From: Sipunculus nudus
Lineage: Eukaryota > Annelida > Sipuncula > Golfingiida > Sipunculidae
Reading direction: 5' to 3'
Assembly (NCBI GenBank): GCA_026874595.1
Contig: CM049314.1
Location: forward strand, 76,088,300-76,152,299
Length of the DNA stretch: 64,000 nucleotides
Of the stretch, positions 2,754-33,456 are shown piece after piece. Below the pieces are notes generated by a model. It saw nothing but the letters and a program-made list of their open reading frames with translations, did not search any database and was not told where the DNA came from. Position numbers and translations under genes: made by a program. The stretch's first letter is position 1. Each line of letters begins with the position of its first letter.

Positions 2754-2763
2754 ATAGCGATCA

Positions 2764-2826
2764 CTCTTTGTCCGTCGTCCGTCTGTCCGTCTGTCTGTCT
2801 GTCCGTCTGTCCGTCTGTCCGTCCGT
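2764..2826 (-). repeat. (GTCY)n microsatellite of E2
   Basis: Run of GTCC/GTCT tetramers next to the terminal hairpin. It mirrors the GGAC/AGAC run at about 7527-7589 in E1. A tetranucleotide tract beside the 3' hairpin recurs in E3, E4 and E6. Confidence 0.75.
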
Positions 2827-7603: not shown

Positions 7604-7632
7604 AGCTCAGATGACTTTCAGTCAGCTGAGCT
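7604..7632 (+). repeat. 3' terminal hairpin of E1
   Basis: Stem AGCTCAGATGACT, loop TTC, stem AGTCAGCTGAGCT (one mismatch), followed by AA. It is the mirror of 2725-2753 and marks the outer right boundary of the composite. Confidence 0.75.
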
Positions 7633-7634
7633 AA

Positions 7635-10804: not shown

Positions 10805-11285
10805 TAAAATGCAGTGAAATAATACTGCAGAACACAGGAGATTATAGTCTAAATGCTGAAAAATACAGGAAATTAGTTTTCCTAAGGAAAATACAGTATA
10901 AATAAATATTTATTGGAGTCACAGGACACCCTGAGATTATAGTTAGGATGGTAACCTCTCTCTAGGTTTATTACAAGATCTGACAGCTTTGTGCCGTTAG
11001 CTTCCTTAAAATTGTGTTTTCATATGCCTTTTTGTGCACCCTCTTGGTACACAAATATGCCTTTTAGTATAATTTAGAAATGTATGTAAACAAGGCCTAC
11101 AGGCCTAATGCGAACCTGTGCAATGAGATTGCACCAGGTATAATGCTTCAATGCTGGACCATTTCTTTTTAAGAACATGTGTAACATGTATATGAACAAT
11201 GCAAGTACTAAACACTTAGAACAATAAACAATTAAACAAACATCACTGCTGAAATTCTAGCATGGATGCACACAACACAAAAACT
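10805..11285. other. Non-repetitive intergenic stretch, no gene seen
   Basis: AT-rich sequence between F3 and the nested F2a element. There are no credible open frames or structured repeats. Confidence 0.4.
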
Positions 11286-12567
11286 ATAATACAGATAGTC
11301 AACAAGCGAATACTTGTATCCGCCAAAATCAGAGTGGGACGGTTGAAGTGAGGCATGGATTGAGTGGCATGGGGAATAGAGTGTGGTGTGTTGCATGATA
11401 GCCTGGAATGTCTGCAGCCGAAATGTGTTTGATGGTTGTGCCACCTACCACCTACCATGTTTATACAAAGATTTATAAACATGCAAAATTTTAGGCAGAT
11501 AAGTCAAACCACTACTGAGATATGAGTGATTTTATCCCACGGCAAACAAACAGACGGACACTTAAAAAATGATTATAGGTGGCGCCATCAGTTTTGCGTA
11601 TGATAAATACCTATGTGAGATCTATAAACATGCAAAATTTTGGCCCAATCGGTCAAATGGTTCCAGAGATATGAGCTTGGATGTCTGTAGCATTAATCTG
11701 AATGTAAGTGGCGCCAATTGCCATAAAATCAAGAAAGCTGTCGAGGATGTATAAACCTGCAAAATTTCAGGTGGAAAAGTCAAACCACTTCCGAAATATG
11801 AGTGATTTTATCCCAAGGCAGATGAACAGATGGATGCTGTGCAAAAATGGTTGCGGGTGGCACCACCAGTTTTGTGTATGATAAAGTGCTATGGGGGATA
11901 TATACACATGCACAATTTTGGCCCAATTGGTTAAACGGTTCCCGAGATATGAGCTTGGATGTCTGTAGTATTAATTTGAATGTAAGTGGCACCACCTGCC
12001 ATAAAATCTAGAAAGCTGTCAATGATGTATAAACCTGCAAAATTTCAGGTGGATAAGTCAAACCACTGCCGAGATATGATTGATTTTATCCCAAGGCAGA
12101 TGAACAGATGGACACTGTGCAAAAATGGTTGCAGGTGGTGTCACCATTTTTAGTGTATGTTATAAAGCTTTCCAAGGGCTACATTTGTGCAAAATCTTTA
12201 GCCTTATCAGTCAAACAGTTCCGGAGATATGTGGGTCTATGTGTGGAAACAGAAGCACAAATGGATGCTGGGCAGAGAGAAAAGGTCAGAAATCAACCAA
12301 AAATGGGGATGCAGCAGTTCAAATGTGACCAATCATAATTCCGAATTTTAAACAAGGGACCCATGGGTCACATCGCTCATCTTAATTTTGGAAAATATTA
12401 GTAACTGCAAAATATTTTTATTTCTTTTGGTTTTTCATATATGTTATCATTAGAAAAGCTAGGAGAAAATGGCCCTGCTAAGATGAAACTCTGTAAATTA
12501 TAGAATAATGGACATGAGCTAAACTATTTAGTGATGCTTCAAGGGAACAAATAGGCCTTCAGTAAGT

Positions 12568-12571
12568 GTTA
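12568..12571. repeat. Target-site duplication GTTA, left copy
   Basis: GTTA lies immediately outside the left terminal inverted repeat and matches GTTA at 22164-22167 outside the right one. Confidence 0.65.
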
Positions 12572-12612
12572 GGGCCATTTTCACAAAATGTGACAAATAA
12601 CGGTAAAGACAT
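12572..12612 (+). repeat. Left terminal inverted repeat of the transposon
   Basis: Perfect inverse of 22123-22163. Its inner part contains one copy of ATAACGGTAAAGAC, the motif repeated in the subterminal regions, so the TIR probably includes a transposase site. Confidence 0.85.
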
Positions 12613-15600
12613 GTCCATGATTTTAAAACACTCTAAAACCAATAAAACTTCCTTTTTAAGCATGCAGTCATTTGAAAATCAAAGTTTCATACTAGAAAAA
12701 AATAGAATGAGTATTTAAGAACATTTTTTTAATGACTTATGGCAAAATCAATAATCAAAATGTCCTTACCGTTATGTGTCCAAACTGTATACCACAATAT
12801 GAAAACACAAAATTTTAAGTTTTGAGTCTTGTGACCACTTGATTTTGCACATATTATGTTCAGGTATTATCTGAAAAAGTGCACAATCAATCCTGTATGA
12901 GATTAATATAAACTATTTTTTGTATAGAAGCTGTTTTTCATGTGGCAAAGAACTGAGAATAGATGTGTCTTTACCGTTATCATATTATAATTTGATCAAC
13001 TGGTGGCGATAGTTTTTCAAAAAGCTGACAGAGGGCAACACCTACAAAAGTACCAGGATGTAAGGCAGCCATATTGAACAGAAGAGCAGAAGCATGCTGG
13101 TGTATTTGTGCTGAAAAGTTGCAAGTAAGTAAAAATTTTTGATGTGTCACAAGAATAGAATGTCTTTACCGTTAGCATTAACAAATATACTATCAGTAAA
13201 AATAAAAGGAAGAGTCTTTCACAGCTGGAAGTGCTTTATATATAGGTCATTTTGAAAAACTTTTGCCAAAGGTGTCCTTCATATCCACATTCCCAAGGTC
13301 ACTTGTGTGTCTTTACCGTTATCTGGATTTGTCTTTACCGTTATGGAGTAGTCATAACGGTAAAGACTTGTATTGACAGAGTGTCACACACATGGGAGTA
13401 TTTTCACAGTTGGTAGGACTAATATAAAGATTTGTCAGACACTTTGCCTTTTGCCAAGTTTAGTTAGGCTGTAGTGTAACCTTGTGTAGTTACATCATAT
13501 CTCACAGTCTGGGATAAACTCTGCTCAGTTAATAAAAATTAACCCAAAACAGATTTTTTAATATATGGAGAATAGATTGTGACCTTTAGAATGAAATTAT
13601 TTTCAGCTCAGTATATAATATAAATTGTGAAAAGGGTAACATGTAAAGAAACTGTCCATGTTCTGCATAAGACTTAGTTATTCCATACTATCTGTGATAA
13701 ATCATTGCATAACAAATCAACAGCATCAGATATCAAAAGAAAATGAGCTGTCATAATTTCAGTAAATGTTAGGTGGTTGAATCCATGTGTTGATAATGCA
13801 GCTTCTACATTAATGTTGAAACCACATTTTAATTTCAAGTGAACTGACCTGTGTTGTGTCATGGATAACCCATATTAAACATTTTTGTCACCAATGTCTT
13901 ACAAACAAATATAATTTCTCTCCATATAAGTTATAAATATTTGATTATAAGATGTTGGTGTTACATTATAATTATATACCTAACGAAAGTATTGCAAGCA
14001 TCTAATGTGCTGAGGTAGTTGAACCAGATATTATTCTGCTTTCAAGATTTTTGGCTCTTTTTCTGTTGGGGGAATAATTGTTTGTACAATTGAACAGGAG
14101 AAGGGGAAATTTTATGAAAAACAAATTTCAGAAGGAACAGGAATAAGACCCTAATATAGATAGAACAGTCCCTTTGAATCCATATATTTTATAAATGTGG
14201 GTCCCCTTTTGTGCTCTTATATATGGCCCAAAAGGTGATCATCATAATAAATACATTGATCACACATTTGTATTGAGATAATACAAGTATCATTCTATCT
14301 TTGTAAGAGTGAATCATATATAGTGATAGAGGATTTACTGCATGGAGACATTTCACAAAATAAGAGCCTACATACATTTGCTTACAAATGAACGAGAACA
14401 TATATTTGCCATGTTTCCCAGATCAGACGCTGGGCCTTAAATAGTTGTCTTCTATTTGAAATAAATTGTTACCTACCAAAATATTGCCCTGAAACCATTT
14501 GCTAACACCTGTACATGAGTGTAAAAACAGTGGACTGGGCACTCATGACAGGCGACAACATAAACACAGCGCCTGGGACTCTGTGCATCCCAGAGCCACA
14601 ACACCTGTCATATCATGAGATGCCCTGTCTGACTTGGCCTCAAAAATGTAATACATATTCCTTCTGGCTGTAACAGCATTACACAGGCCTGGGACCGAAT
14701 ACACGACCTGTGCTACCTGGGTCATTTCCATTGAGGCCTGTGGACCTATCCTGCAAATTTATCTGTTGCAACAGGTTTTACAATGAATTTACATTGGCCC
14801 ATAGACTGTAATGTCCATCCAGCAGAAATATATCAGAGGACATGAAGGTGCATGTGTAGACTTGTTTGGACTACACTTAGTTTAGGATCTGTTGCGCATG
14901 CACAAATAGGACCTCAGTCACATGGCCTTGTTATTGTAAACAGACACACATGGGCTGTTTACTAACAAGCAAAACCATAATAAGGTGTTAAACAGCTCAA
15001 AAGGAGGTACTGAGACCTTGTGCTGAGATGGTTTTGTCTTGAAACTTTGTATAAAGTAAAAAGATGGTGTAAAAGAAAAGACATATTATTACTCCTGATT
15101 GTGTCCCTTTAAATTGACGCTGATTTCAGAGGTCGGATACCAAAGTGAAAATTAATAACCTGATCTTGAGAGCTTGCACGGACAGACTCTTGTGGATAGC
15201 TGCAAAATCCCTTGTTGTGATTCCCTGTTAATTCATATTATGATATGCAATTGCTGAGATTCCATGTACATGTTTGTGTCCCATATCCCTATGACTATTA
15301 TATTTCATAAACACAACCCATTTACTGGCCATGTTTTCAATATCATCTAAAAGTAGTAACCACTGGGTTTATTGTTTTGATGAGTTTTCTGGTGCTTTTA
15401 TCTCGCAAGCCTGATAACATATTTCTTAATAAATGCCTGCTCGCTGGCCTTAAATAGAAGCCTGCTTAGTTTAGATGCCGAGTCAGAGCATTGTCTGAAA
15501 AAATCCCCCCCTCCCCCCCCCCCGCATTTGATCACAAGGAAATACTGTATATATATTTTATCACTCAAGGACAGGTGATGCCTACACTAATTTTGAGGAA

Positions 15601-15790
15601 GGCATAATTGCTTAACATGGGTGCGAGGTTTCCTATCAGATTTCACAGTGACATCTTGCCTGACCTGAACCAGTGAGTGCTCTGTCCTTCTGTGTTAAAC
15701 CTCCTTGGTCATACTAACAAGAAAAGTCCTTATACTTTGATTTGAGAATCTGAAGTCATGTATTTTATTTCATTTTAGCTGCTATCCTGA
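12613..15790. other. Transposon left interior without a clear gene
   Basis: Beyond the motif cluster, open frames are short and not persuasive. A C-rich run sits at 15505-15523. A polypyrimidine stretch ending TTTCATTTTAG at 15768-15778 is a good 3' splice site 13 bases before the transposase ATG, so an upstream non-coding exon probably lies in this interval. Confidence 0.45.
12762..13367. promoter_or_regulatory. Left subterminal cluster of GTCTTTACCGTTAT motifs (candidate transposase sites)
   Basis: Copies lie at 12762-12775 (GTCCTTACCGTTAT), 12967-12980, 13162-13175 (last base changed), 13309-13322, 13331-13344 and 13354-13367 (inverted), besides the one in the TIR. The last three start about 22 bases apart, roughly two helical turns. 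Binding by the transposase is inferred from position and repetition only. Confidence 0.6.
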
Positions 15791-15791
15791 A

Positions 15792-18607
15792 ATGGCACCC
15801 AAAAAGTCAAATGCTGAAGCAATGCGAAAATGCAGAGCAAAATTGAAAGCAGACCCAGTAAGACACCAAGACTACCTCAGAAAAGAGAGAGAAAGATACA
15901 GAAGAAGAAAAACTGAAGGAAAGATAAAGACAATACATGAACTATCAATGAGGGATCAAAGAAATATGCGCCGGATATGGAGGTCAGAAAAGAGAAATCA
16001 AAGAAAGAACATCCATAAAACTGATAGTGCGTGTAGTCTTACTCCGCCACAGACACTTGATGCAGGTTCAAACCATCAGTCACATCAGATAAAAGTAGGG
16101 AGAAGAAAAGTGAGACGAGAAAACCGAAAATGTTATAGAACAATTGTGAAGCAAAATCAAACCATGAAATGCCTTAAAAAAAAAGTGCGGTCTATGCAAA
16201 GATACATTCAGCGACTTAAAGCTGACAAAGTCTGTCAACAAGCCAGCTCAGCTCATGTCAATAATGATTCTCCAGCTGCAAAAGCTGAAATACTGATTCA
16301 CAGGGCTGATGTGGGCAAAATAAGAAGAGAACTAACATTTGGATTTGCTCTGCAAAAGGAAGTCAAAACAAAGTTGAAACAAAATGCTAGAAAACACAAA
16401 GAAAGAAATGCCATCCACAGGGTGGTTATTGGACCCATACTGAGAAAGTACCGCCTCATAAATAAAGTTAAGAAAGATCTGTCAGTTTCACTGTCAACAA
16501 AGCAACTTGAGCACACAAAAGAAAATGCATGTTCCAGGTCATTGCTGACAACACTTAGGAAAAGGAAAACTGGATTGGGGAAAGTAGCAAATGCAGTTAA
16601 AACATTTTTCCTGGAGGACAGGAATAGTACTCCCACAGCTGGGAAAAGAGAGACTGTCACTGTAAACAAACAGAAGAAACAAAGACGTTACCTATGTGAC
16701 AGTATGTTCAATCTATACAAAAAATTCAAATCGGAAAATACATCACTGAAAGTTTCTTACACTTCCTTCACTCGCTTGCATCCATTCCATGTGCTGATCC
16801 CTTCAGTGAATAACAGAAATACAAACAAGTGTAAGCTTCATCATAATTGTGAAATGAAAGCTGCGAAACTCTACAGCCTTGGCTTGCTTCCTTCTTTAAA
16901 AACACAGACTCTGATTTCATCAGTTGTTTGCTCAACAAAAAACAAAAAATGCATGTTTGGCCAATGCACAAAATGTAAGAAAATACAGGATCTCTTTATC
17001 ATCAGTGACAACAAAGCTGCTACAGACAGAGTGAATTACTTTGAGTGGGGGCAGACAAATCAAATCCGGAAAACAAACAAAGGAGAAATGACAATCAAAG
17101 TGATGACCAAACTCGAAAAATGCAGCACTGTAAGCAGCCTGTGTGATCTATCTCAGCTGGAGTTCAGGAAACTAATGAGCCATGAATACAGAATATTCCA
17201 TCAATATGAGGCTGTAAGGTCAATAAAAGAAAAGATGTCCAAAACAGAGTGCATCTTGCAAGTGGACTTTAGTGAGAACTATGCATGTAAATCACACACA
17301 GAAATTCAGTCCATGCATTTTGGGGGGCAGCAGAAGACAGGTGACTTTGCACACATGCCATGCCACCCTGGTTAATGAATCAGGTCAACAGTATAAAAAG
17401 TGTTACTGCACAGTCAGTGAAGACAACCGCCACAGTCCCATCGCCATTTGGGCTCATCTTGTACCAGTTATAGATGACCTGATAGAGAAAGGAATAGATA
17501 CAATCCATTTTGTCTCAGATGGGCCAACAACTCAGTATAGGAACAAGGCCAATTTTTACCTTATGGCCACCCTTCCATTTGACCGATGGCATCTATCTCA
17601 TGTAACATGGAATCTCCTTGAGGCTTCCCATGGAAAAGGTCCAGCTGATGGGATCGGAGCTGCCGTCAAGCCAGCAGCTGATAGGCTTGTAGCAACAAAA
17701 GGTGATGTGCTGACTTGCCAGCAACTTGTGCATGTGGCAGAGACCCTGAATGTCCAAATATCTGAAATCAACTCCAAGGAAATTGATTCTATTCAGGAGG
17801 ATCTAGATCAGCTTTCACCACTTACAATAAAAGGGACAATGCAAATTAAAAGGGACAATGCAAATTCACCAGCTTGTAATTCCATCCAGGGCAACAATTT
17901 TCCACCGTGAGCTCTCATGTTACTGTGCTGCAAGTAACCGCTGTGGACGTTTCTGTGAATGCCATTCACCCATTAAAGTTGAAGTCCCTTGTAAAGTGCA
18001 AATAGCAGTTAATGGGATCGAAAGTCATCTCACAAGGGAACAAATCCTAAGATTTGAAAAGCGACTGCTTGAAGGTCATGACATAGAAGTTTTGGACTTG
18101 TCAACATTGAGTTCTGAAGAAAAGAATGAGTACATTTACTGGAAAGCTTGGAAAGCTGCTAAGTTGTATCATAAACCAGATGATGAATCCAGTGGTGATG
18201 AGGCACAGGTGGTAAAACTAAGTGAAAAAGGTTCAGGAGATCCAGACTGGGAACCACCAAACAGAAATGATGATAAGGACCAATCAGACAAACTGAACCT
18301 GGTTCAGAGTATCACTGTGAAACAAGACAGGTACTATGCTGTTTTTTTTCTATTACGGAGGAAAGTGACATTCTACATAGGGCGTGTCACTGAGGTTCAA
18401 GATGCCATGGTTACAATGAAGTTCTTAGAGCGTAAGTTAGTTGGAAACCAATTTGTTTATGACTGGCCACGTCGAGATGACATTTGCTGTGTTGAGAAAG
18501 ATGTTATTCTTCAAGAGGTTAATTTTAAAAGACCACCACCATTTGCCCTTGAAGAAAGTCAGATGAATATTATTCTGAAGTGTGTGGAGGGGATCCAGCA
18601 AACATGA
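15792..18607 (+). pseudogene. Broken DDE-type transposase gene, family unassigned
   Basis: Three consecutive open frames (15792-17375, to 17910, to 18607) form one ~930-codon gene broken twice. The N-terminus is highly basic (MAPKKSNAEAMRKCRAKL...), probably DNA-binding. Candidate catalytic acidic residues sit in VDFSENYAC (about 17262-17288), FVSDGPTTQYRN (near 17509-17544) and LLEASHGKGPADGIG (near 17614-17658). A Cys-rich stretch CYCAASNRCGRFCECH follows at about 17920-17970, and the C-terminal part is acidic. Lesion one: an extra base in the G6 run at 17322-17327. Lesion two: a 19-base tandem duplication (17829-17847 and 17848-17866). Each shifts the frame by one. A splice acceptor at 15777-15778 suggests a 5' UTR intron. 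It sits inside intact TIRs. The DDE role is inferred from motif layout. Confidence 0.7.
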
Positions 18608-18984
18608 AGTCAAATACTGTTTCAAAGTGAAAATGTAAACAATTAAGATCCTTTTAATATCACCAAAGTAAACATTTTCCACTGGTTCATATAAACTGGA
18701 AGATTGGACTTGGTTCGTGTCATGATGTAACATCTCAGTTATGCCAAGCCAAGAAAATTCTTCCAAATGGGAAAACTTACACACATTAACTGGCTATATA
18801 GGTACAACCAGTAATCATAGTAATGTCCCATGTTTACATAAGTGACTTGAAATTTGATGTGCATATGCATGTACCAGCATTAACTTTGTATACTGCCAAA
18901 TTTATAACAAATACCAGTTTATCATGTTTACATTTGGCTAGTGGTCACACACAGATTTGTCATTTAAAAACTTGTTTAGGCATC
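18608..18984. other. Transposase 3' flank
   Basis: Non-coding stretch after the transposase stop. No AATAAA was found close by. From about 18820 degenerate CATGTTTACATAAGT words herald the minisatellite. Confidence 0.4.
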
Positions 18985-20700
18985 AGACCGATACACACAG
19001 GTTTGTCATGTTTGCATAGGTCAATGGTCTGGTCAGATTGATACTCACAGGTTTGTCATATTTGCATATAAGTTAAAGGTCAGACTGATACTCACAGGTT
19101 TGTCATGTTTACATAAGTTAGAGGTCAGACTGATACTCACAGGTTTGTCCTGTTTACATAAGTTAGAGGTCAGGCTGATACTCACAGGTTTGTCATGTTT
19201 GCATAAGTAAGAAGTCAGACTGATACATACAGATTTGTCATGTTTGCATAAGTTAGAGGTCAGGCTGATACACACAGGTTTGTCATGTTTGTATAGGTCA
19301 ATGGTCTGGTCAGACTGATACACACAGGTTTGTCATGTTTGCATAAGTTAAAGGTCAGGCTGATACACACAGGTTTGTCATGTTTGTATAGGTCAATGGT
19401 CTGGTCAGACTGATACACACAGGTTTGTCATGTTTGCATAAGTTAGAGGCCAGGCTGATACACACAGGTTTGTCATGTTTGTATAGGTCAGTGGTCTGGT
19501 CAGACTGATACACACAGGTTTGTCATGTTTGTATGGGTCAATGGTCTGGTCAGACTGATACACACAGGTTTGTCATGTTTGCATAAGTTAGAGGTCAGGC
19601 TGATACACACAGGTTTGTCATGTTTGTATAGGTCAATGGTCTGGTCAGACTGATACACACAGGTTTGTCATGTTTGCATAAGTTAGAGGTCAGGCTGATA
19701 CACACAGGTTTGTCATGTTTGTATAGGTCAATGGTCTGGTCAGACTGATACACACAGGTTTGTCATGTTTGCATAAGTTAAAGGTCAGGCTGATACACAC
19801 AGGTTTGTCATGTTTGTATAGGTCAATGGTCTGGTCAGACTGATACACACAGGTCTGTCATGTTTGCATAAGTTAGAGGTCAGGCTGATACACACAGGTT
19901 TGTCATGTTTGTATAGGTCAGTGGTCTGGTCAGACTGATACAAACAGGTTTGTCATGTTTGTATGGGTCAATGGTCTGGTTAGACCAATACATACAGGTT
20001 TGTCATGTTTGCATAAGTTAGAGGTCAGACTGATACTCACAGGTTTGTCATGTTTACATAAGTTAGAGGTCAGGCTGATACTCACAGGTTTGTCATGTTT
20101 ACATAAGTTAGAGGTCAGACTGATACTCACAGGTTTGTCATGTTTACATAAGTTAGAGGTCAGGCTGATACTCACAGGTTTGTCATGTTTACATAAGTTA
20201 GAGGTCAGACTGATACTCACAGGTTTGTCATGTTTACATAAGTTAGAGGTCAGGCTGATACGTACAGGTTTGTCATGTTTACATAAGTTAGAGATCAGGC
20301 TGATACGTTCAGGTTTGTCATGTTTACATAAGTTAGAGGTCAGGCTGATACGTACAGGTTTGTCATGTTTGCATAAGTTAAAGGTCAGGCTGATACACAC
20401 AGGTTTGTCATGTTTGTATAGGTCAATGGTCTGGTCAGACTGATACACACAGGTTTGTCATGTCTGCATAAGTGAATGGTCTGGTCAGATTGATTTAGGT
20501 GTCATGTTTACACAAGTGAATGGTCAGGTCAGACTGATACTCACAGGTTTGTCATGTTTGCATAAGTTAGAGGTTATGCTAATACACAAAGGTTTGTCAT
20601 GTTTGCATAACTGAATGGTCTGGTCAGATCGATACAGGTGTCATGTTTACACAAGTGAATGGTCTGGTCAGACTGATACTCACAGGTTTGTCATGTTTAT
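18985..20700. repeat. Minisatellite with 45 bp and 50 bp monomers forming a higher-order repeat
   Basis: The 45 bp monomer reads AGGTTTGTCATGTTTRCATA, then AGTTAGAGGTCAG, then RCTGATACWCAC. A 50 bp variant has GTATAGGTCAATGGTCTGGTC in the middle. Between about 19270 and 19990 the two alternate as a 95 bp higher-order unit. From 20000 to 20370 the 45 bp type is homogeneous. Degenerate copies continue to about 21170. Because 45 is a multiple of three, long repetitive open frames appear on both strands; these are not genes. Confidence 0.8.
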
Positions 20701-21890
20701 GTACATAACATCATAAGTGCATAGTCTTGTCAGACTGAGACACAGGTTTGTCATGTTTATGTACATAAGTGCATAGTTTTGTCAGACTGATATACACAGG
20801 TTTGTCATGTTTGCATAACTGAATGGTCTGGTCAGATTGATACAGGTGTCATGTTTTTTACACAAGTGAATTGTCTTTTCAAACTGATTCAGGTCTGTCC
20901 TGTTTGCATCATCCTAGTAGTTACAACCAGGATTGTCATCATAAAACATGTGTTGGGCTCAGACTGATACACACAGTGTCATGTTTACATATGTGTATGG
21001 TCTAAGTCAGACTGATGTATATATACACACCGGTTTGTCATGTTAATGTAAGCAGGTTTTGTGGACAGACTGATTCACACAGGTTTGTTGCACGCGAGTT
21101 AGGGGATCACACTGGTACAACCCAATTTTGTCATGTTTGCACAAGTTAAGTGGTCAGAGTAGACCACCAATGTTTGTTGTGTTTACAGTTGATGAGTTTT
21201 AAAATTAAGACTTAAAGGAGTCATGTTGAATTTTGAGGTAAGCCTGCAGTTGCAATTCGGACTTAATGGTATTATCTGAGAATAATGTCATCCTTTGAGA
21301 CATAGATCAGCAACAAGTAACCTTTGAATAATGTGGGGGTACTAATTATTCTAATTTCCATAAACAATTTTTAAACTGGTCTAGTAGGAATTCAGTTGCA
21401 GTTTCTCAAAATCTTCTATCTCTAAATCTCCTTAGAATTTAACATGGTATATTTTTATTTTTTGCTTTATTTGCCAAATACATCACATCATAAAGACTGG
21501 GTTAGCTCATAATTTCCATTTGTAATTACAAACATCCAGGGATACTTGTTCTTTGAATAAAATTCAGCATTGAACACACAGAACAATTGACCATGATGAT
21601 ATTTAAAATATATGTCATCACACATTGTATACTATTTTGAGGATCTCATAGTTTATAGTTTGGAAACAGTAACTTGAATGTAGTCATTTAAATGCAGCTT
21701 TTATCAGTAGTTGCATGGTGTATTTGTAAACTTATGATAAGTACAATTCCTATTGATCAGGAGTTCATAGGTTCCTTTAAACTGTGAAGTTTTACATAGG
21801 GTTATTAAAGATCTTTAACAAAAATATTGTCTTATTTTGAGTCATTAAAGAACATGAAATTGTTTTAAATATGAAACCCATGATATCTTT
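20701..21890. other. Degenerate minisatellite then AT-rich transposon interior
   Basis: Decayed repeat copies to about 21170, then unique AT-rich sequence up to the right motif cluster. No gene seen. Confidence 0.45.
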
Positions 21891-21984
21891 ATAATGGTAA
21901 AGACATAGCACGTCTTTCCTGTTATTTCCATAACGGTAAAGACGTAGCGCATGTCTTTCCTGTTATTTCCGTAACGGTAAAGAA
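21891..21984. promoter_or_regulatory. Right subterminal cluster of ACCGTTAT-type motifs
   Basis: Copies and variants lie at 21891-21904, 21912-21925 (GTCTTTCCTGTTAT), 21930-21943, 21953-21966 (variant) and 21971-21984, in alternating orientation about 20 bases apart. The right cluster is denser and shorter than the left. Confidence 0.55.
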
Positions 21985-22122
21985 GAACAGGGAATTATTT
22001 TTTGGGTAATATTTCAGTTATTTTTTAAAATCCAGCTTTGCTGTTTCTGCTGTTCATTTGTGTGCACACATTCTTCAAAACAAAATGTAAAAAATTGAAT
22101 TCCTCAAAGATTTTTTTTTTAA

Positions 22123-22163
22123 ATGTCTTTACCGTTATTTGTCACATTTTGTGAAAATGGCCC
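22123..22163 (-). repeat. Right terminal inverted repeat of the transposon
   Basis: Perfect inverse of 12572-12612, followed by GTTA at 22164-22167. Confidence 0.85.
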
Positions 22164-22167
22164 GTTA

Positions 22168-23631
22168 TATAAAAGTATATTTCATGAAGGTGTGAAGGTA
22201 ATTAAGTTTTTAAAAGTTAAATATATGGCCATAAGAGTTAAAAATTAATCCCACAAAGTTTGACCAATATTCCTAATTTTAATACTAAGTTAACAGTGTT
22301 ATTCACACCTAGGCCCCGCCAACTTTAAGAGATATAAATAAAATGCTAAAAAGTATTTATATCTTCTTAAATCTTGTCAGTTAGCACTTACATTAGATCC
22401 TAATATTTTATCACATTTGAATATTAGGATTAAATTCCTGAAATTTTTTTCTTTATAAAAATCAAAATTGTCCAAGTCTCATCAAAAAGAATTTATTTAA
22501 CATTAAAATTCTAAGATTCATCTTGTTTATTAGTCCTGTGTATTGAAGGGGTGGGTGGGGGGAGGGGTCTCCGTTGTTACTGCTCGTTGCTGAAAAAAAT
22601 ATTAATTTTAAGATTCATCTAGTTCATAGTACAGGTCTGTCAACAGAATGGAAAGGGGGGGGGGGGGGGGGGAGCGAGGGTTGCCAGAGAAAAAGGCTCC
22701 CTGTGGTATGGTATTAACTGCAGACAGCCTGATCAAGCTCAATTCAGTGGAGAGAGCTGCACAGAATGACCAACAGTCACCAAAGTGGACTGCTTGACAA
22801 TGTAAGGGAATACAACAAGAGCCTCCAAAATAAATTCAATTACTAGACTAATTTTGCAGCTTTTATTTTCTAATTTCAGATTTTAACAGATTAAATCCTT
22901 ATGTGCACATGCTGTGAAAATTATATCCACAGTACTTACAGGAAAAAAACGTGCCGTGGCCAAAGTTGGGCAAAATTTAAGGTACCAATTTTTTATTTTT
23001 GCTAATATTTGAAAAAATTTAAAAGATTTTGATCTAATTTTGGGTATACAATTTAATTTTGATCAATTAAAGTTATATTACTGGAAAAAAAAGTCCTTAG
23101 CTTAAACATGTTTTGTGTTAAGCGATCAAATATCTTTTCTGATTTTTTACAAAATACATTATGTTTGAGCCCATAACTTTTTTAAATAATATAATACAGA
23201 CCTTATTTCTGGCATGTATATAGGAACTATATAGAGGAATATTTATGATAAATATGAGGAAAAACAGATAAGTGGTTTAGATATTAGGCAGTCCTGAGGT
23301 GTGAAAATATGTTTTTAATAAAAAATTGAGGTTTTTCCTTAATTTCTCAAAGGAACAAATTTGCAAAGACCCAGTTTTCAGCTCGGTAGGAGATCTTTTA
23401 GACATCTAACATTATGCCAACAGCCTGGGGAGCATAGAGATATGGACTGAATGACCTACAGTCACCAGAGTTGATTGCTTGACAATGTAAGGGAATACAA
23501 CAAGAGCCTCAAAAAAAACTCTATTACTAGCCTAATTTTGCAGCTTTTATTTTCAAATTTCAGATTTTAACAGGTTAAATCCTTTATGTGTACATGCTAT
23601 GGAAATTAAATCCACAGTACTTAAAACAAAA
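22168..23631 (+). repeat. E3 interior with core repeat copy
   Basis: AT-rich sequence with an 18-base G run at 22655-22672 and a G-rich tract at 22547-22567. It is followed by a core repeat (about 22870-23400) containing AACGTGCCGTGG and GGCAAAATTTAAGGTACC. A second core begins at about 23440 and is cut at CCACAGTACTTA by E4. Its continuation (ACATGCCGTGGC) is found at 27859, after E4. Confidence 0.5.
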
Positions 23632-26600
23632 CAAGGGACCTATGGGTCACGACGCTCAGCTGTTATATATGATAAAAAATATTATTTAGAAATAAGGCAC
23701 ATGCTGGTTTTGTGTGGTAATAAATATAAGCTGTATTATGAGTTGTTGTTGTTTAGCTTATGTATGATTTTGATAGTACCTTTGGAGACAGGGAAGAGGA
23801 TTGATTTCATTTATTTTATTAACAAATGGAGTACTATTGTCACACAGATTTTGACTTGGCCATATAACTTATAAGCAGAACATATAATATAAGAGTTTAA
23901 CTATTTATTAAAAAAATTACAAATATTGTCCCAAATATAATTTTTATTAAAAATAATTAGAGAATCATATGATTTTTTAAAATGAAATATAACTGATATG
24001 ATTATTAAAATAATATCAAAGAATATATTCATGAATGCATTCATGAATACATTTTGAAAGTATTTACACGAGTATTCATTACTTTCATTTTTACCTGAAT
24101 TCCCATTCTTTATGCAAGAAATTTTATAATGGAGTACATAATCATATTCGTATTTAAATACAATTACAAAGTATTCGCACCATGTCTGGTATTTATTCAG
24201 TTTTCACCAAACAATGATGTTTAGAATCCAGAATATACAAAATTCACACATTTAAATAATGATCATAAGTACCTGGTTTTATGGCTTTTATTTATATTAA
24301 AAATAACTGTAAAAAATTCATTTTGGACTAATTTCACATCAATGTACACACTAGACACAGTAGGAATCTAGATTAATATTATCAACTGCATCTTTGTCTA
24401 TCATTAATTTCCTTCATATAATCCCTAATGATTAGTAATGAATAATATGATTTACTTCTTTATTATTAAAATTGAACTGAAAAATGCCATAGGTGACTGC
24501 ATGGTGTTATTTGGAATATGTGACATTCTACCCATCGATACAAGATTCTTATATCATCAGTAACTGCAAGTTAATTTCCTGTTATTATAAACTAGCAAAT
24601 TCCTTTTCTATTTTTCTTTAATCTGTTATTAAACACCAATAAAAATTTATTAATTTATTGTTTATTGTTATGTTGTTGGTTAAAACTACTAGATGAGTTG
24701 GGTTGGACACCTGGATCGACTGTGGCTGGCCATAAGCTGCCTGGATTCTCGCCTCAAGCGTGCATAATTTGATGAAAGGTCAACAAGGTCAACATACAGG
24801 TGACTCAAGAGGGGCTGGAGAGAGCCAAAGTCTGACAGGGTCTCATAAAAAACATGAATAAAAGCTACAATTTTTGCCCAATTTCTTTCAGCTTTCTAAA
24901 CTAAAAAGCTGAAATCCTTATGTGTGCATGATATGAAAATTATATCAACAGTGCTCACAGGAAACAAACGTGCCATGGTCACAATTGGGCAAAATTTAAG
25001 GTACTAATTTTATATTTATACTAATAACTTATAAAATTTGAAAAATTCAGAACTAATTTTGGGTATTCAATTGAATCTTGATTAAATAATGTTACATCCT
25101 TGACAAAAAAATCTCTAGCTTCAGCAATGCCCTTGTTAAGGGAGTAAATATATTTCTTGATTCTTTACAAAGTGCATTATGTTTGGGCCCATAACTTAAA
25201 ACAATTACGCAATACTGACATCATTCTGGCATGTGCATAGAGAATGAAAAATATGTATATTATTTATGATTAAAGTCAGATCAGTGGTTTTGATATTAGG
25301 CAGTCTTGAAGTGTAACAATGGGTTTTTAATGGAAAAATGAAGTTTTTCATTAATATCTCGAAGGTATTAAGTCCAAGTGACAAAATTCTTGGCATGGTA
25401 GGGGATTTTTGAGACATCTAACTGTATGCCGAATTTAAGGAACTTAGAGCTGAAGCTGGGGAGCTGAGCTCTTGCAAACTGCATAACACTAGCTTGATGT
25501 AAACAATATGTTACATGGTGCTTGAAAACTTGATTAAAATCTACAGTTTTTGATCAACTGGTTTAAAATTTTTGGTGTTAACAGTTGAAATGCTAACAAA
25601 AACATGCTGTGAAAATTAAATCCACAGTACTTACAGGAAAAAAACGTGCCATGGTCAAAGTTGGGCAAAATTTAAGTTACCAATTTTTTATTTTTATTAA
25701 TATTTTAAAAAATTTAAAAGATTTTACAAGTTTTATAAATTTGTATTAAAAAAAACACTTAAAATATAAGTTAAAATATTAGAATTCTTAGTTGCAATCA
25801 TTATACATCCAGAGTGTAGCTCATATTGGGTCATATTATGCATACACATATATTTTTATTTTTTTTAAATCACAATTTTTTAAACTGAATTTAAAAGAAA
25901 ATAATGCCACAACATGGCATCTACAAGATTATTCCTTGAATCACTATTAAAACGTTTTGCACATTGGAGTTTTCAGTACATGCTTAATCTTATTCACCAA
26001 AATAAAATAAGATTCTGTAAATTTGGTAAAATAAAAACATCTTTTCAATAAAGTATACACATTGTTGGTTGAATGAGGGACAAACAATATCATTATGCTA
26101 ATTACAATCTAAGCTTTAATTTATTCCTGGAATTAATAGTCAATTTCACACCTGGTGAAGTTTTTACTCTTCTCAAGGAAGGAATTACTTGTCTGATGCA
26201 CATCCACACTTTCATAGCAATACGCCACTTTGTGGACACAATTAAATGTGCATTTTAATCATTGTAACCCTGGTGGTAAATACATAATCTAAAATGTAGC
26301 ATAGCCAAGAATAAAATGAAATACAGAAAATTATAACATTCATCTAGTTAATGCATCATCTAGGGGGGGGGGGGGTGGGCAGGGCAGAGGGGAAGCCTGC
26401 TAGTAGTGGCCCAGTTGAGCCAAGACAAGCTGCCTGGGGTGGGTTACATAATGCAAGTGAAGGCTTTACTACTAGGTAGGCTAGATGTAAACAACACTTG
26501 ACATGGTGTATGAAAACTGGAATAAAAGCTACTCTTTTCAATCAATTCCTTTGAAATTTCAGATTTTAAAAGATTAAATCCTTATGTATATACGCTGTGA

Positions 26601-27856
26601 AAATTAAATTAACAGTGCTTACAGAAAAAAAACGTGCCATTGCAAAAGTTGGACAAAATTTAGGGTACTGATTTTTTTATTTAAGCTAATAACTTGAATA
26701 ATTTGCAAAATTCAGATCTAATTTTGGGTAAACAATCAAATCTTGATTAAATAAAGTTATATTCCTGACAAAAAGTCTCCAGCTTCAGCAATTCTCATCT
26801 TAGGTAAGTAAATATATATCTTGATTTTTAAAAAAGTGCATTATGTTTGGGCCCATAACTTAAAAAAAAATACGCAATACTGACATCATTTCTGGCATGT
26901 GCATAGCGAATGTATAGAAAAATATGTATATTATATATGATCAAAGTCAGATCAGTGGTTTTGATATAAGGCAGTCTTAAAGTGTAACAATGGGTTTTTA
27001 ATGGAAAAATGAAGTTTTTCATTAATATCTCAAAGGAATTAAGTCCTAGTGACCAAATTCTTGGCATGGTAGGGGATTTTGGAGAAATCTTACTGTATGC
27101 CAAACTTAAGGAACTTAAGAGCTGAAGCTCGGAGCTGAGCTCTAGCAAACTGCATAGCAATATGTGACATGGTGCTTGAAAACTTGAATAAAATCTACAG
27201 TTTTTGATCAACTGGTTTCAAATTTTTGGTGTTAACAGTTGAAATGCTAACAAAAACATGCTTTGAAAATTAAATCCACAGCAGTTACAGGAAAAAATGT
27301 GCCGTGGTCAAAGTTGGGCAAAATTTAAGGTACCAATTTTTTATTTTTGCTAATATTTTAAAAACTTAAAAGATTTTGATCTAATTTTGGGTATACAATT
27401 TAATTTTGATTAATAAAAGTAATATTACTGGAAAAAAAGTGCTAAGCTTTAACAAGTTTTGTGTTAAGTGATAAAATTTCTTTCCTGATTATTTACAAAA
27501 TGCATTATGTTTGGGCCCATAACTTTTTTAAATTATATAATACAGACCTAATTTCTGGCATGTACATAGGAATTATATAGAGGATTATTTATAGGAAATA
27601 TGAGGAAAAACAGATGAGTGGTTTTGATATTAGGCAGTCCTGAAGTGCGAAAATAGGTTTTTAATAAAAAATTGGGGTTTTTCCTTAATTTCTCAAAGGA
27701 ATGAAGTCGCAAAGTTTTGGCTTGGTAGGAGATCTCGGGGACATCTAACATTATGCTGAATTTTGGATTCCTAGGTCTTACGGTTTCAAAACGTGCCACA
27801 TCTACGGATGGACTGACGGACGGACGGACGGACGACGGACAATGGACCACGACTAA
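23632..27856 (+). mobile_element. E4: pearl/HINE-like element inside E3, terminal hairpin lost
   Basis: The 5' end is CAAGGGACCTATGGGTCA, then ACGACGCTCAGCTG, at 23632. The body has ~1.2 kb of AT-rich sequence and several core repeats (about 24900, 25600, 26580, 27260) of the E3 type. A GGAC tract at 27813-27845 is followed by GGACCACGACTAA, where E3 has GGACCACGACTTTAGC and the hairpin. The hairpin appears to have been deleted between short CT repeats, leaving CTAA. Sequence after 27856 continues the E3 core interrupted at 23631. Confidence 0.5.
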
Positions 27857-28098
27857 AAACATGCCGTGGCAAAAGTTGGGCAAAATTTAAGGTACCAATT
27901 TTATATTTTTGCCAATATTTTAAAAAATTTAAAAGATTTTAATCTAATTTTTGGTATACAATTTAATTTTGAGTAATTAAAGTTGTATTAATAAAAAAAA
28001 AGTCCCTACCTTTAACACTTTTGGTCTTAAATGACCAAATATCTTTCCTGATTTTTTTATAAAGTCCATTATGTTTGGGCCCATAACTTTTTTAAACT
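27857..28098 (+). repeat. E3 core repeat, resumed after E4
   Basis: Contains AACATGCCGTGGC, then GGCAAAATTTAAGGTACC. It runs to AACTTTTTTAAAC, where F2b interrupts it. An uninterrupted equivalent reads across this join in E4 near 27520-27560. Confidence 0.5.
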
Positions 28099-29278
28099 AG
28101 AATACGGGCAGTCTACAAGCGACTACGTGTATCCGCCTAAATCAGAGTGGAACGGGTGAAGTGAGGCATGGATTGAGTGGCAAGGGAAAATTGAGTGTTG
28201 CATATTAGCATGGATGTCTGCAGCCAAATTGTGTATGTAGGTTGCCCCCCATACCACAAAATCCAGAAAGCCGTCCAAGTTGTATACATATGAAAAATTT
28301 AAGGCAGATAAGTCAAACCACTACATGTATATGAGTAATTTTAGCCCGTGGCAGACAAACAGATGGACGCTGAGCAAAATGGTTGCAGGTGACGCCACCA
28401 GTTTTGCGTATGATAAAGAGCTATGTGAGAACTATACACATGCAAAACTTTGGCCCAATCGGTCAAACGGTTCCCAAGATATGAGCTTGGATGTCTGCTG
28501 CATAAACTAGAATGCAGGTGGTGCCAGCTGTCATAAAATCAGAAAAGCTATCCAGGATGTGTATGCATGCCAAATTTCAGGTGAATTAGTCAAGTCACTG
28601 CAGAGATATGAGTAATTTTAACCCAAGGCAGACGAACAGATGGACACTGTGCAAACATGGTTGCAGGTGGCGCCACCATTTTTGTGTATATTATAAAGCT
28701 CTCCAAGGGCTACATTTGTGCAAAAAAATTTTCCTGATCGGTCAAACGGTTCCCGAGATATGAGCTTGGATGTCTGCAGCATAAACGTGAATGTAGGTGG
28801 CGCCACCTGTCATAAAATCAGAAGAGCTATCCAGGATGTATACGCATACAGAATTTCAGGTGAATTAGTCCAGTCACTGCAGAGTTATGAGTGATTTTAA
28901 CCCAAGGCAGACAAACAGATGGACACTGTGCAAACATGGTTGCAGGTGGCGCCACCATTTTTTGTGTATGTTATAAAGCTCTCCAAGGGCTACATTTGTG
29001 TAAAAAAATTTCCTGATCGGTCAAACGGTTCCCGAGATATGTGGGTTTATGTGTGGAAACAGACGCACAAACGGACGCAGAGCGCAGAGGAAAGGTCAGA
29101 GGTCAAAACAAAATCGGGGCGCAGCAGTTCACATGTGACCTGAACATAATCCCGGGTTTCGTAAAATTCCGCCCAGCGGTTACGGAGGAGTTCTCCGGAC
29201 ACCTACGCCGCGGCGGCGGCGGCGGCGGCGTGCAGCTGAAAACATAGTATCCGCAGAACTCTGTTTTGGCGGATACAA
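28099..29278 (+). mobile_element. F2b: complete F2 element inserted in E3
   Basis: The 5' end is AGAATACGGGCAG, with GTGTATCCGCC about 25 bases in. The 3' hairpin at 29247-29276 has arms GTATCCGCAGAAC and GTTTTGGCGGATAC. Core repeats carry GGTGGCGCCACC near 28667, 28797 and 28946. A (GGC)n run at 29211-29230 precedes the hairpin. The flanking E3 core is interrupted exactly, giving clean boundaries, and this is the best reference copy of F2 in the window. Confidence 0.65.
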
Positions 29279-29643
29279 TTAAATAATACTGACTTAATTT
29301 CTGGCATGTACATAGGAATTATATAGAGCAATATATATGGTAAATATGAAGACCAGATGAGTGGTTTTGATATTAGGCAGTCCTGAAGTGTGAAAATAAA
29401 TTTCTTATAAAAAATTGAGGTTTTCCTTAACATCTCCAAGGCACGAAGTCCTATTGGCGCAAATTTCGGCAAGGAAGGAGATTTTGGGGACATCTAACAG
29501 TATGCCAAATTTCAGATTGGTAGGTCCAATGGTGTCGAAACATGCCAGTCTTACAGATGGACGATGGACAGACAGACAAATGGACGGACGACGGACAATG
29601 GACCACGACTTTAGCTCAGATGACTTATAGTCAGCTGAGCTAA
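29279..29643 (+). repeat. 3' part of E3: core remnant, GGAC tract and terminal hairpin
   Basis: Core text (CTGGCATGTACATAGGAATT and onward) is followed by a GGAC/AGAC tract at about 29555-29600. The hairpin 29613-29641 has arms AGCTCAGATGACT and AGTCAGCTGAGCT, loop TAT, then AA. Confidence 0.65.
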
Positions 29644-29752
29644 AAATTCTGCCCAGTGGTTATGGAGGAGTTCTCTGGAAACCTATAAAGTGATCTGCAT
29701 CCGACTGAAAACATACCGGTAGTAAGCGCAAAACTCTGTTTTGTCAGCAACA

Positions 29753-30080
29753 ATGATTGTAGCTGGCACCACCAGTCTTATATACAACAAAGAGATATAT
29801 AGATATGCCCAATGTCAGACTGATATGTCAAACCCCTCCTGTGAAATAAGAAGGGACATACACTTTGCAAAAATGATTGTAGGTGGCTCCACCAGTCTTG
29901 TACACTACAAAGCTATTCAATATGTATAAACATGCCCAATTTTAGGCTGATGTATCAAATTCCTCTGTAGAAGTAAGCAGGCCCATACACTGCAAAAGTC
30001 AATGTAGGTGGCGACACCTGTCTTGTAAATGAGATTACCATCAAAGACGCATAGACAGGTCAAAATATCAGTCCAATACA
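29753..30080 (+). repeat. Tandem ~125 bp repeat with GTGGCNCCACC-like motif
   Basis: Three units each carry a diverged palindrome (GCTGGCACCACCAGTCTT, GGTGGCTCCACCAGTCTT, GGTGGCGACACCTGTCTT) about 120-126 bases apart. It looks like a diverged relative of the F2 core. Confidence 0.5.
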
Positions 30081-30360
30081 TCAAATTTCCCCAGAGTTTG
30101 ATGCACTGAGCTGACAAGGCTTAGGTGAGTAATGTAGTTGCCCCCGAGTGACCTGTGACAAATTGCTGCCTCAAGCTACTGCACTGAGTGAACTCTTGAC
30201 CTGCACCTGGCTGACTGAGTGAACTTTTGACCTGTACCTGGTTGCACTGAGTGAACTCTTGACCTGTTGCATAATCTGATACAGTTGGCATTTTGCCAAA
30301 GCTATAAATAGATTCAGGCTGAACTTTTGTGCCAAATATGATGCAGTGAGCAGTCTGCCA
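30081..30360 (+). repeat. Short tandem repeat GAGTGAACTCTTGACCTG
   Basis: Three copies around 30185-30270 of a ~32-35 base unit built on CTGAGTGAACTYTTGACCTG and CACCTGG. The rest of the interval is unremarkable. Confidence 0.5.
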
Positions 30361-30364
30361 AAGC

Positions 30365-30790
30365 TATAAATAGAATGCACTACTGATGTATAAACCTGCA
30401 AAATTTCAGGTGGATAAGTCAAACCACTGCCGAGATATGAGTGATTATAATCCAAGGCAGATGAACCGATGGACGCTGTGCAAAAATGGTTGCAGATGGT
30501 GCCACCACTTTTGTGTATGATAAAGAGCTATGGAAGATCTATACACATGCAAAATTTTGGCCCAACTGGTCAAACGGTTCCTGAGATATAAGCTTGGTTG
30601 TCTGCAGCTTAAACGTGATGTAGGTGGCACCACCTGTCATAAAATCAAGAAAGCTGTCCAAGATGTATATACATGGAAATTTCAGGTCGATAAGTCCAAC
30701 CAATGCAGAGATACGAGTGTTTTTATCCCAAGGCAAATGAACAGATGGAGGCTGTGCAAAAAATCTAAGAAAATGCAGTTCCAATAATCT
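30365..30790 (+). repeat. F2 core fragment
   Basis: Contains the F2 core phrases CCTGCAAAATTTCAGGTGGA, GGTCAAACGGTTCCTGAGAT and GGTGGCACCACCTGTCATAA, but neither the 5' end nor the hairpin end, so it is a truncated copy. Confidence 0.5.
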
Positions 30791-33154
30791 GGGAATTTTG
30801 CGTCTAGACATTGTGTTTAGACATCTAGACACCTGCCAGAGCCAGGTCAGTTGCCATGGTGATGTCTGAACCCCACCTGGTTGTAATGAATGACCTCTTG
30901 AATTGTCTGCTGAAACTCAGCATGTTTTCAAATCTGTTTTCAAACACAAAAAGCCTTTTTTAATTGGCTACAATGCTTTTTTAAAGCTGTATTTACCCTA
31001 TCTATTCTTATAAAAATTGTAGAACACTACCATCGAATACTTCTTGTAAAGTTTAAACCAATCAGCTTAACAGTTTCATCATAAATCAGTGTATAAGCTA
31101 GAAGTGTTTAAAATTACATTTTCGCTTGTAAAAAACAGATCAATGTAGGTGGCGCCACTAATACCTCAATTTCAGATATGACATATGTGACCAACATTGG
31201 CATAAAATTTGGTGATTATAGCTCTAGCCATAACTCAGATTTTAATTTAAGTGTACTTTTTTGGACAGATGACTAAGTTCAACCTCCTGTAATTCAGCCA
31301 AAAATCTCTGAACTGGAATCATTCGAACAAACTTGAGAGAAATTGTTCCAGCGATCATTTCTGTGAAATATTGGACATTTTGGCTGTAAAGTTTCAGAGA
31401 AGAAGATTTTTACAGCTTTTTCCCTATAAAATCTGAGAAAATGCAGCTAGAAATAAATAAACAAAATCCGATAAAGTTTTTTGGATTATTGATTATTTGC
31501 AAAATATTTGGTGATGCTAGCTCCTGCCGTTTTTGAGATAGCTATGGTCAACGTACGATGCCGCACAATCGCATAATCTCACAGGTTCGCTATAAAAGAA
31601 ATCAGGAATATACGTAAAATTATTACAGATGCATACTGAATGCAAAATTAAAATACAGATATATCTCATTGATGGCAAATTCTTGAATTAAGTTGAGCAG
31701 GGATACCAAAAATTTATAATCCATGTAAAGTTGTCTTTATATAGCCACAGAGAGCTGAATATCCATGATTGTAACATTGCCCGGTATGATATATAACATA
31801 TATCTAAATTTTTAAAAGCTTTTAAAAAAACTTTCTTGTTAATATTAACCAAAGATAAACTGAAATCTAAATGTCTAGTGGCATGATGTATTAGATGCTT
31901 ATAAACTGGTGCCAGTTTAGCATCACACAGCTAACATATATGGTAAAATGACTCAATATAATCTCCATACTTCAGCCAAAAATCATTCATGTGGAACCAT
32001 TAATGACAATTATTATAAGAATTATTGTAGGGATTATTCTTGTAAAATATCTAACAAACTAGCTTCAGTGGCATGAGTCGAAAAATGTTTCCCAGGTTTA
32101 TAACTCTTATAGGAAGATACAGCAAACTGGCTAAGTTCAGCTTCCTGTAACTCAGCCAAAAAGCACTGAACCAAAACCATTTGAACAAATTTGAATTATC
32201 AACTTCTGAGGATAATTAAAGTGCGAGATTTAAGAATTTGGCCCAGTTGTTTTTGAGAAGAAGATCTTTGTAGCCACTGAGCTAATGTTAGGGCATATGA
32301 CTAAATTCAGCTTCCCATAACTTAGTCAAAAGTCTCTGAAAAGAGACCATTTGAACAAACTTCAGAAAGCACTACCCTAGGATATCTCTCTGTGATTTGA
32401 AACATTTTGGCCATATGGTTTCAGAGAAGTAGTTTTTTGTAGCCCTCAGTGTGATACAGGCACTAATGACCCCATACAAAAAAAGCTGATGCAGGTGGCG
32501 CCACCAATACCTCAATTTCAGATATGACCTATGTGACCTATCATTTATGTGAAATATTGGACATTTTGGTTGAACAGTTTCGGAGAAGAAGATTTTTAAA
32601 GCTTTTTGTGCTTGTTCCCTATAAAATCTAAGAAAATGCAGTTAGAAAAAAATAAACAAAATCCTATATAGTTTTTTGGATTACTGATTATTTGCAAACA
32701 ATTTGGTGGTGCTAGCTCCTGCTGTTTTTGAGATAGCTTTGGTTAATGTACAGACAAGGCACGACACAAAGCACGACACACATCAAATAAGCTCACAGGT
32801 TCGCTAAAAAAGTGTAAAGAGAAAAAAATCAGCTACAATTCCCCATTTTGTTTTTCACAGACTGAATGAAAATTTGCTTCACATGCTATGCATGTGTTTA
32901 TACATTAAACCCCCCAAAGTCAGAAATATATGCATGTTGCACATGAATATGTGCAAGAAGATAGAAGCATTTTAAAGTTCCAACACAAAAGTGCAATAGT
33001 ATAACATTCTAACCCATTGCAACTGGACTGTCTTGGCATGAGAGCAATAGTATATCTCAGAACTCTTCTACGGAAAAAAGAGAGGGAAAAGTGAAATAAA
33101 GAGTAATAAGTTTCATTTTCAGCATATCCTAAAGAAAAGACAGACACTTTTAAA
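30791..33154 (+). repeat. Fourth tandem-core repeat family (F4), at least two long direct copies
   Basis: 31140-31605 and 32490-32815 are direct repeats. Both start near GCAGGTGGCGCCAC / GTAGGTGGCGCCAC plus ATACCTCAATTTCAGATATG and end at CTCACAGGTTCGCTA. Between them ~150-190 base sub-units with TTCAGCYTCCTGTAAYTCAG and CATTTGAACAAA recur near 31270, 31960, 32120 and 32300. I found no terminal hairpin. Sequence 30800-31130 and 32820-33154 is otherwise unremarkable. Confidence 0.5.
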
Positions 33155-33456
33155 CAAGGGACCCATGTGTCATGGTAGCTGATTAAGTGGGCCTTACAGG
33201 TAAAAATCTAAAATGATAATAATTTAAGATAAAGTATAAGAGGAAGAGGTAATATTGGTCATGGTTGGTTGTTTCAGTAAGATCCTAGTATTTTTTAGTA
33301 TACTAGTTTTTTTTTTTTTTAATTCATTAAAAATATTATGTAGTTGCAATAAAACTTTTGTCCCCAATGTGCAGGTGCAAAAACTCAATGGCCAGGACAG
33401 AAGACAAACAATGAATCATAAATATAGCTCAGATGACTTATAGTCATCTGAGCTAA
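33155..33456 (+). mobile_element. E5: 302 bp mini-element with E1/E3-type ends
   Basis: The 5' end is CAAGGGACCCATGTGTCA at 33155. The 3' hairpin at 33426-33454 is a perfect 13 bp stem (AGCTCAGATGACT / AGTCATCTGAGCT), loop TAT, then AA. It has no tandem core and only a hint of the GGAC tract (CAGGACAGAAGACAAACAA), so it shows the minimal end modules of the family. Confidence 0.6.

Follow-up and report, generated by a model that had tools for sequence, protein, structure and literature searches.

Shared junctions suggest that much of a transposon nest in Sipunculus nudus was built earlier and moved as ready-made packages

Several described systems come close to the locus reported here. Cg_HINE elements of the Pacific oyster are described as having flank modules that bear inverted repeats close to the ends, together with a terminal palindrome, a 4-nt microsatellite and satellite-like central arrays, and as inserting into T-rich sequence with no duplication of the target; double arrays occur in two Cg_HINEs, and recombination, capture of an array junction or insertion of filler was offered as their source (PMC7492417). 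Helitron2 is reported to have a 5' inverted repeat at its very end, within a hairpin, to have a partner repeat 20-30 bp from the 3' end that precedes a palindrome, and to insert after TTTT without duplication (PMC3627910). In maize, helitrons insert into helitrons, and composites containing inner ends are later mobilised, resulting in several ends (PMC3288121), while nested, shuffled Helitron/Helentron loci with mixed arrays have already been described for the oyster in a review (PMC12628747). REannotate and similar chronologies take nesting level to give insertion order (PMC2672092).

We analysed a 64,000-nucleotide stretch of the Sipunculus nudus genome, hereafter the window, which contains a real nest of transposons inside transposons at 11-30 kb. 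The families involved, H, F2 and E, are new, whereas nested Helentron loci and multi-ended helitrons were already known. E and F2, likened here by description, resemble the oyster HINEs in end structure, microsatellite, arrays and T-rich sites; their tandem cores have units of 280, 336 and about 680 bp, compared with an average of 140-180 bp for oyster HINEs, and are accompanied by ACGG-type microsatellites (PMC7492417). Unlike the proposals for the double arrays of Cg_HINEs, whole foreign elements with both ends lie inside the elements described here and appear to be copied along (PMC7492417). On the opposite strand, E1, E2 and E6 have ends that agree with the description of Helitron2, although Helitron2 is defined by a protein tree and E and F2 are characterised here by ends and repeats (PMC3627910). 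Maize helitrons are canonical and carry gene fragments, whereas these elements are satellite-bearing and Helentron-like, with up to three levels in each putative package (PMC3288121). Elements within elements with mixed arrays occur here as in the oyster loci, and the passages of the review on those nested loci contain no test of junctions common across copies (PMC12628747); nor was a comparable junction-sharing test found in the literature on nested Helitron-type elements, as represented mostly by listings and passages. The logic of REannotate, which can misdate insertions when the outer element already carried passengers (PMC2672092), is also that of a preliminary description of this stretch, in which F2a was placed first, then E3, then three insertions into E3.

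Architecture of two nests

Within the nest, H encloses F2a, F2a encloses E3, and E3 encloses T, E4 and F2b. The outermost element, H, was absent from the preliminary description and is characterised here from its left end only. Its left part lies at 11090-11282 on the minus strand, with an end, ACAAGGCCTACAGGCCT, that was found at 7 places, and its right part, made of about 120-bp repeats and recognised by comparison with other H copies, at 29753-30384 on the same strand. In the window H breaks off at 30384, while all nine other H copies examined continue, and F2 core repeats without F2 ends stand exactly at this break (30385-30762). F2a, also on the minus strand, consists of a larger part with a 280-bp tandem core (11283-12351; self-BLAST, repeat analysis) and a smaller part with a decayed end hairpin (29646-29752; self-BLAST, alignment, fold). 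Between them, E3 (12352-29645, minus strand) measures about 17.3 kb with its passengers and about 2.3 kb without them. On the minus strand, the terminal hairpin of E3 (29610-29645) forms the element's 5' end, and the last four bases on the right (29642-29645) may represent target TTTT read on the complementary strand. E3 contains T, a 9592-bp DNA transposon on the plus strand (12572-22163), followed on the minus strand by an intact tandem unit 1 of about 685 bp (22751-23435; self-BLAST, alignment) and a unit 2 that is interrupted both by E4 (23631-27856, minus strand), a second E-family element lacking a terminal hairpin, and by F2b (28097-29278, minus strand), an F2-family element recognised by alignment and by its recurring junction.

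Self-BLAST of the window and end-to-end alignment of joined flanks bore out the earlier count of at least five nested elements, whose boundaries had been placed correctly to within a few bases. F2a at 11281-12343 matches F2b at 28094-29154 with 80.4% identity and continues at 29643-29685, aligned to 29163-29205. Unit 2 of E3 matches unit 1 with 88% identity on either side of E4 (22751-22949 with 23436-23634 to the left, 22945-23186 with 27855-28096 to the right), and the unit split by F2b stands whole at 27293-27535 plus 27531-27854. Three of the four joins claimed earlier (E3 in F2a, E4 in E3 and F2b in E3) match such uninterrupted copies in the window, the joined flanks and intact copies aligning end to end in all three cases. 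When the true right flank was swapped for random window sequence, 0 of 5000 replacements reached the observed score at each of these joins; the best random scores came close to those observed (82 vs 89, 112 vs 116 and 118 vs 120), which we put down to the sampling of related units.

Another nest built from these families, unmentioned in the earlier account of the 11-30 kb nest, lies at 770-7636. E1 (770-7636, minus strand) contains an F2 (about 945-2113) and is interrupted by E2 (2721-6155, plus strand), which has the opposite orientation and the same F2 inside. With E2 excised computationally, E1 is 98.2% identical to E2 over 3421 columns, and F2 occupies one and the same position in both (98.0% identity for F2, 98.6% for the arrays and 96.0% for the first 175 bp). 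Since these twins hold one F2 at one place, F2 was evidently copied together with the E around it. The flanks of F2 in E1 align with one 336-bp unit, at a score equalled by 13 of 5000 random flanks, and the E2 join at a score equalled by 3 of 5000, these nonzero matches being attributed to related units among the draws. Both sides of the F2-in-E1 junction were also seen in one locus elsewhere in the genome (L022; such loci carry the prefix L throughout) and its left side in another (L014). The A-B-A'-B' pattern at 767-7639 was also considered as a circular permutation, a view rejected because E2 is inserted in E1 in opposite orientation.

Ends and repeats of E and F2

Judging from their sequence, E and F2, whose cores are tandem repeats, resemble non-autonomous elements of the Helentron (HINE/Helitron2) type; E, F2 and H would then move by a rolling-circle mechanism and with a helper enzyme. 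Six E copies lie in the window, E4 alone being without a hairpin end. One end common to the family is ACAAGGGACC.ATGGGTCA, with variants, and the opposite end is a hairpin closing with TGAGCTAAAA. Read as rolling-circle elements, the E copies lie on the strand opposite to that described earlier, and the earlier orientation was rejected because the published end structure fits the opposite strand. Exact inverted repeats occur in E1 (12 bp), E2 (13 bp) and E6 (9 bp), with the partner 23 bp from the 3' end, and inverted repeats of 10 bp or more arose by chance in 35 of 20000 cases; two of the three copies bearing them are nearly identical. These asymmetric inverted repeats were absent from E3, E5 and E4 (in which that end is missing), and are thus present in 3 of 6 copies. 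Among the five E copies folded, the 5' hairpins of E1, E3, E5 and E6 each beat all 200 shuffles, that of E3 with -14.0 kcal/mol and 0/200 shuffles as good, whereas no hairpin was found for E4 (184/200 as good). A 3'-end palindrome, GACCCATGGGTC, was seen in three of the six copies and nearly so in the rest, but the E3 end folds no better than shuffled sequence (45/200 as good). No target duplication was found at the E2, E3 and E4 joins, and TTTT adjoins the 5' end in all five E copies that keep that end.

Among the F2 copies, which have a tandem core of 278-280 bp, F2b has an exact 10-bp inverted repeat located 31 bp from the 3' end, the copies in E1 and E2 have an exact 7-bp inverted repeat, and F2a has none of note. 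Among the three F2 hairpins folded, those of F2b and of the F2 in E1 beat 200/200 shuffles, while that of F2a was not better than shuffles (-4.6 kcal/mol, 41/200 as good).

Several further features of these families were observed in the window. A 12-bp palindrome, GGTGGCGCCACC, taken with at most one mismatch, occurs 29 times between 1368 and 32505, where 0.01 occurrences would be expected; the 280- and 336-bp repeats contain most of these, and H has it too. E4 lacks a whole end hairpin and inverted repeat (27842-27860), having been either cut short on insertion or deleted later, and contains a 753-bp filler (25727-26479) that replaces a missing part of a tandem unit and weakly resembles the stretch before the E3 array (55 bp at 71%). 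E5 (33154-33458) comprises 305 bp with both ends, a strong hairpin and almost no interior, and its head resembles, by eye, that of the E in L044. E6 (35416-37782), an E-family copy of about 2.4 kb, holds part of a 336-type repeat.

Private insertions and shared junctions

Each junction of the nest was compared with the host assembly (1.43 Gb, 153 contigs). Junction counts refer to the best 40 candidates scored per DNA search, which favours places keeping both sides of a junction, and 20 E3 loci were fetched from the 39 other places holding matches to the E3/F2a left query.

T is a cut-and-paste DNA transposon, with terminal inverted repeats identical at 41 of 41 bp and flanked by a GTTA duplication at 12568-12571 and 22164-22167. 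The window has no T-free copy of that part of E3, and the comparison was taken from the genome: in all 20 fetched E3 copies the sequence runs through the site without T, GTTA being present once in 18 of them and GTCA standing there in the other 2, and all 39 other E3 copies scored among the best 40 candidates stop at the T edge. T is private to this E3 copy among the copies scored. The fourth join claimed earlier, E3 broken by a 9.6 kb transposon, was thereby confirmed by the inverted ends, the duplication and the T-free sites elsewhere.

The first open frame of T (15792-17375, plus strand), of 527 aa, likely encodes a transposase and is broken; a second (17272-17910) and a third (17858-18607) open frame overlap in succession on the same strand. 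Protein relatives of T in the genome include long ones that are 35-38% identical and short fragments up to 47% (first frame), and since the long relatives reach only this level, T is without a close second copy among the matches scored. The T frames had no Pfam match above the curated cut-off, the first frame had no relative among solved structures, and structure models of two open frames had mean confidences of 32.5 and 41.8; as Pfam, solved structures and the two models gave nothing usable, naming a superfamily for T was dropped. No relatives of the T frames were confirmed in viral-contig and genome-contig collections. We take its 4-bp target duplication to fit Sola, among others. T combines identical ends with a broken open frame, yet its genomic relatives have open frames of up to 955 aa (at C3:60.80 Mb). 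It also contains a 19-bp tandem duplication at 17828-17866 and a minisatellite with 45- and 95-bp periods at 18983-20909. A motif, CTTTACCGTTA, is repeated in both orientations inside T near both ends (12597-22138) and occurs nowhere else in the window, in an arrangement resembling that of putative transposase binding sites.

E4 looks private and young as well. At 33 of the 39 other places scored for the E4/E3 junction, only the E4 side matches (97-99% identity), which makes E4 one of a close subfamily, and six cross the junction. Four of these crossers (L048, L049, L050 and L052) are 92-95% identical on the E4 side and two (L051 and L053) are 76-78% identical on the unit side, values on which we take the six as separate insertions at a preferred site. 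In all four fetched relatives of E3 that contain F2b, the E4 site is empty and the sequence reads straight through into F2b, which places E4 after F2b. The part of the earlier chronology that put T and E4 later than E3 holds: T is missing from every other scored E3 copy, and the E4 site is empty in the F2b-bearing relatives.

F2b behaves differently. The left E3/F2b junction is crossed at 39/39 other scored places with 87-96% identity, 37 of which run to the query end, indicating that the E elements which multiplied already contained F2b; the placement of F2b after the arrival of E3 at this locus is unsupported. These crossings also bear on the possibility that preferred A/T-rich sites were struck repeatedly, such that common junctions need not mean common events. 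E4-type heads occupy one unit position although the units themselves are of two kinds or more (L051 and L053 vs L048, L049, L050 and L052), which speaks for this possibility, and the E4 site in the E unit has probably been struck more than once. Similarly, in L012 and L026 the position of F2b is occupied by an F2, but in unit 1 rather than unit 2, with the unit side 83-84% identical. However, in the four fetched relatives of E3 with F2b the unit side (93-95% identical to the window) is nearly as close as the F2 side (95-99%), as expected for one event, and E3 lies elsewhere in many unlike flanks, so E does not need the site it occupies in F2a. Repeated strikes at preferred sites thus seem a rather unlikely general explanation of the shared junctions, and we infer that recurring junctions represent single events.

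The junctions between E3 and F2a are shared to a lesser extent. Both sides of the left junction are found at 3/39 other scored places. At the right junction, between the E tail and F2a, the match extends 40 bp or more into F2a at 22 of the 39 other places scored, with 18 reaching query base 277 or beyond, and at 17 it stops at the junction. Since an E-in-F2a junction is present at other places, it need not have formed here, and the precedence of F2a over E3 stands as ancestry and not as an event at this locus.

Copies of the outer layers extend this sharing. L009 and L010 match the window in H (both sides), F2a and E3, and are without T, E4 and F2b; their identity to the window is 94-95% in the left part of H (over 116 of 202 bp in L009), 93-94% at the E3 start and 91-94% in the right part of H. 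L011 contains E3 in an F2 that extends to both of its own ends, with no H around it. Among 11 right-junction loci, one of which (L031) is the same place as L011, 7 traverse F2a and continue in H as far as base 30384-30385. Conversely, L010 also holds, at 6228-6723, an H copy without F2a in which the insertion site reads straight through. That copies with F2a and E inside have H in common too is a further argument against independent strikes at preferred sites. The left end of H was found at 7 places, 5 of which continue into F2a (window, L010, L042, L044 and L047), and we read these places, from their sequence, as putative separate insertions of a package. Duplication of genomic segments containing one nest, as opposed to package transposition, would also yield several copies with the same internal order, and a repeat array outside H is common to the window and L041. 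Yet the copies lie on different contigs, 270-bp flanks at the 7 left ends of H give no pairwise match, the 300-bp flanks outside H give a single 25-bp match (window vs L041), the shared array, of 180-bp repeats, lies farther out at different distances from H in these two, and L011 is cut at F2's own ends. Segmental duplication is therefore very improbable.

Assembly history and its implications

Taken together, these results suggest that much of the nest was built earlier and moved as ready-made packages, and that nesting alone gives no local insertion order. We consider it likely that this locus is a HINE-type nest plus T, in which packages were amplified and E4 and T were added here later. 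Rolling-circle elements would copy everything between two ends, so that inserted elements would be copied too. An F2 would have landed in an H and an E in that F2, after which H with F2 and E, as well as F2 with E, would have spread as ready-made packages. Separately, an F2b-type F2 would have landed in an E tandem unit, and E with F2b would have spread in turn. The H, F2a and E3 package in the window would then have come to hold an E3 with F2b, presumably by direct insertion into F2a or by exchange between E arrays, and E4 and T would have inserted last in the window copy.

A competing account is sequential insertion at this very place, with F2a first, then E3, then T, E4 and F2b. It has the nesting logic in its favour, as well as the apparently private T and E4, and in L009, L010 and L011 the E3 inside F2a contains none of T, E4 and F2b. 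F2a is also more diverged than F2b (terminal branches of 0.152 vs 0.081, with a difference above 0 in 500/500 bootstraps), although such three-taxon branch lengths favour an older F2a and give no insertion dates. Against this account, the E3/F2b junction recurs at every other scored place, the E/F2a junction is also present elsewhere, and the empty E4 site in the F2b-bearing relatives makes F2b older than E4. Strictly local assembly is accordingly improbable, and of the earlier chronology from F2a to E3 to three insertions, the part concerning T and E4 survives, that concerning F2a and E3 survives as ancestry only, and that concerning F2b is not supported.

The history by packages is itself qualified by the heads of the E elements. 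At the same F2 position, E3-type heads are found in the window, L009, L010 and L011, and E4-type heads in L043, L046 and L047, while the heads in L042 and L044 belong to neither type. A single ancestral package would not lead one to expect such differing heads, which would need an exchange of parts or a preferred site; they slightly lowered our confidence in packages and slightly raised the standing of preferred sites, and the probabilities that we attach to the explanations overlap and are not to be added to one. In a tree of 18 E3 sequences, the window E3 groups with L012 (support 89), an E3 with F2 aboard that does not lie in F2a, and not with L009-L011, so E3 may have arrived here by another route. 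A tree of the F2a/H right flank is nearly a star, with support values of 15-84. More tentatively, and at odds that we would not favour, H, F2 and E could form a modular system, stacked, copied as packages and exchanging heads, as if rolling-circle copying switched template within parts common to E elements and thereby swapped heads; the E elements at that F2 site in the H package differ in head sequence while having ends and arrays in common. If this were true, modular head exchange would be a general way in which satellite arrays are combined and spread.

Copying of passengers inside packages, which we consider the likelier history, would offer a concrete route to two-array elements, a choice left open for the oyster HINEs (PMC7492417). 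More broadly, this genome indicates that an outer rolling-circle element can bring inner elements along, so that nesting alone may misdate insertions. Establishing which junctions the copies have in common repairs the inference of order, and we regard this as the chief useful result of the analysis.
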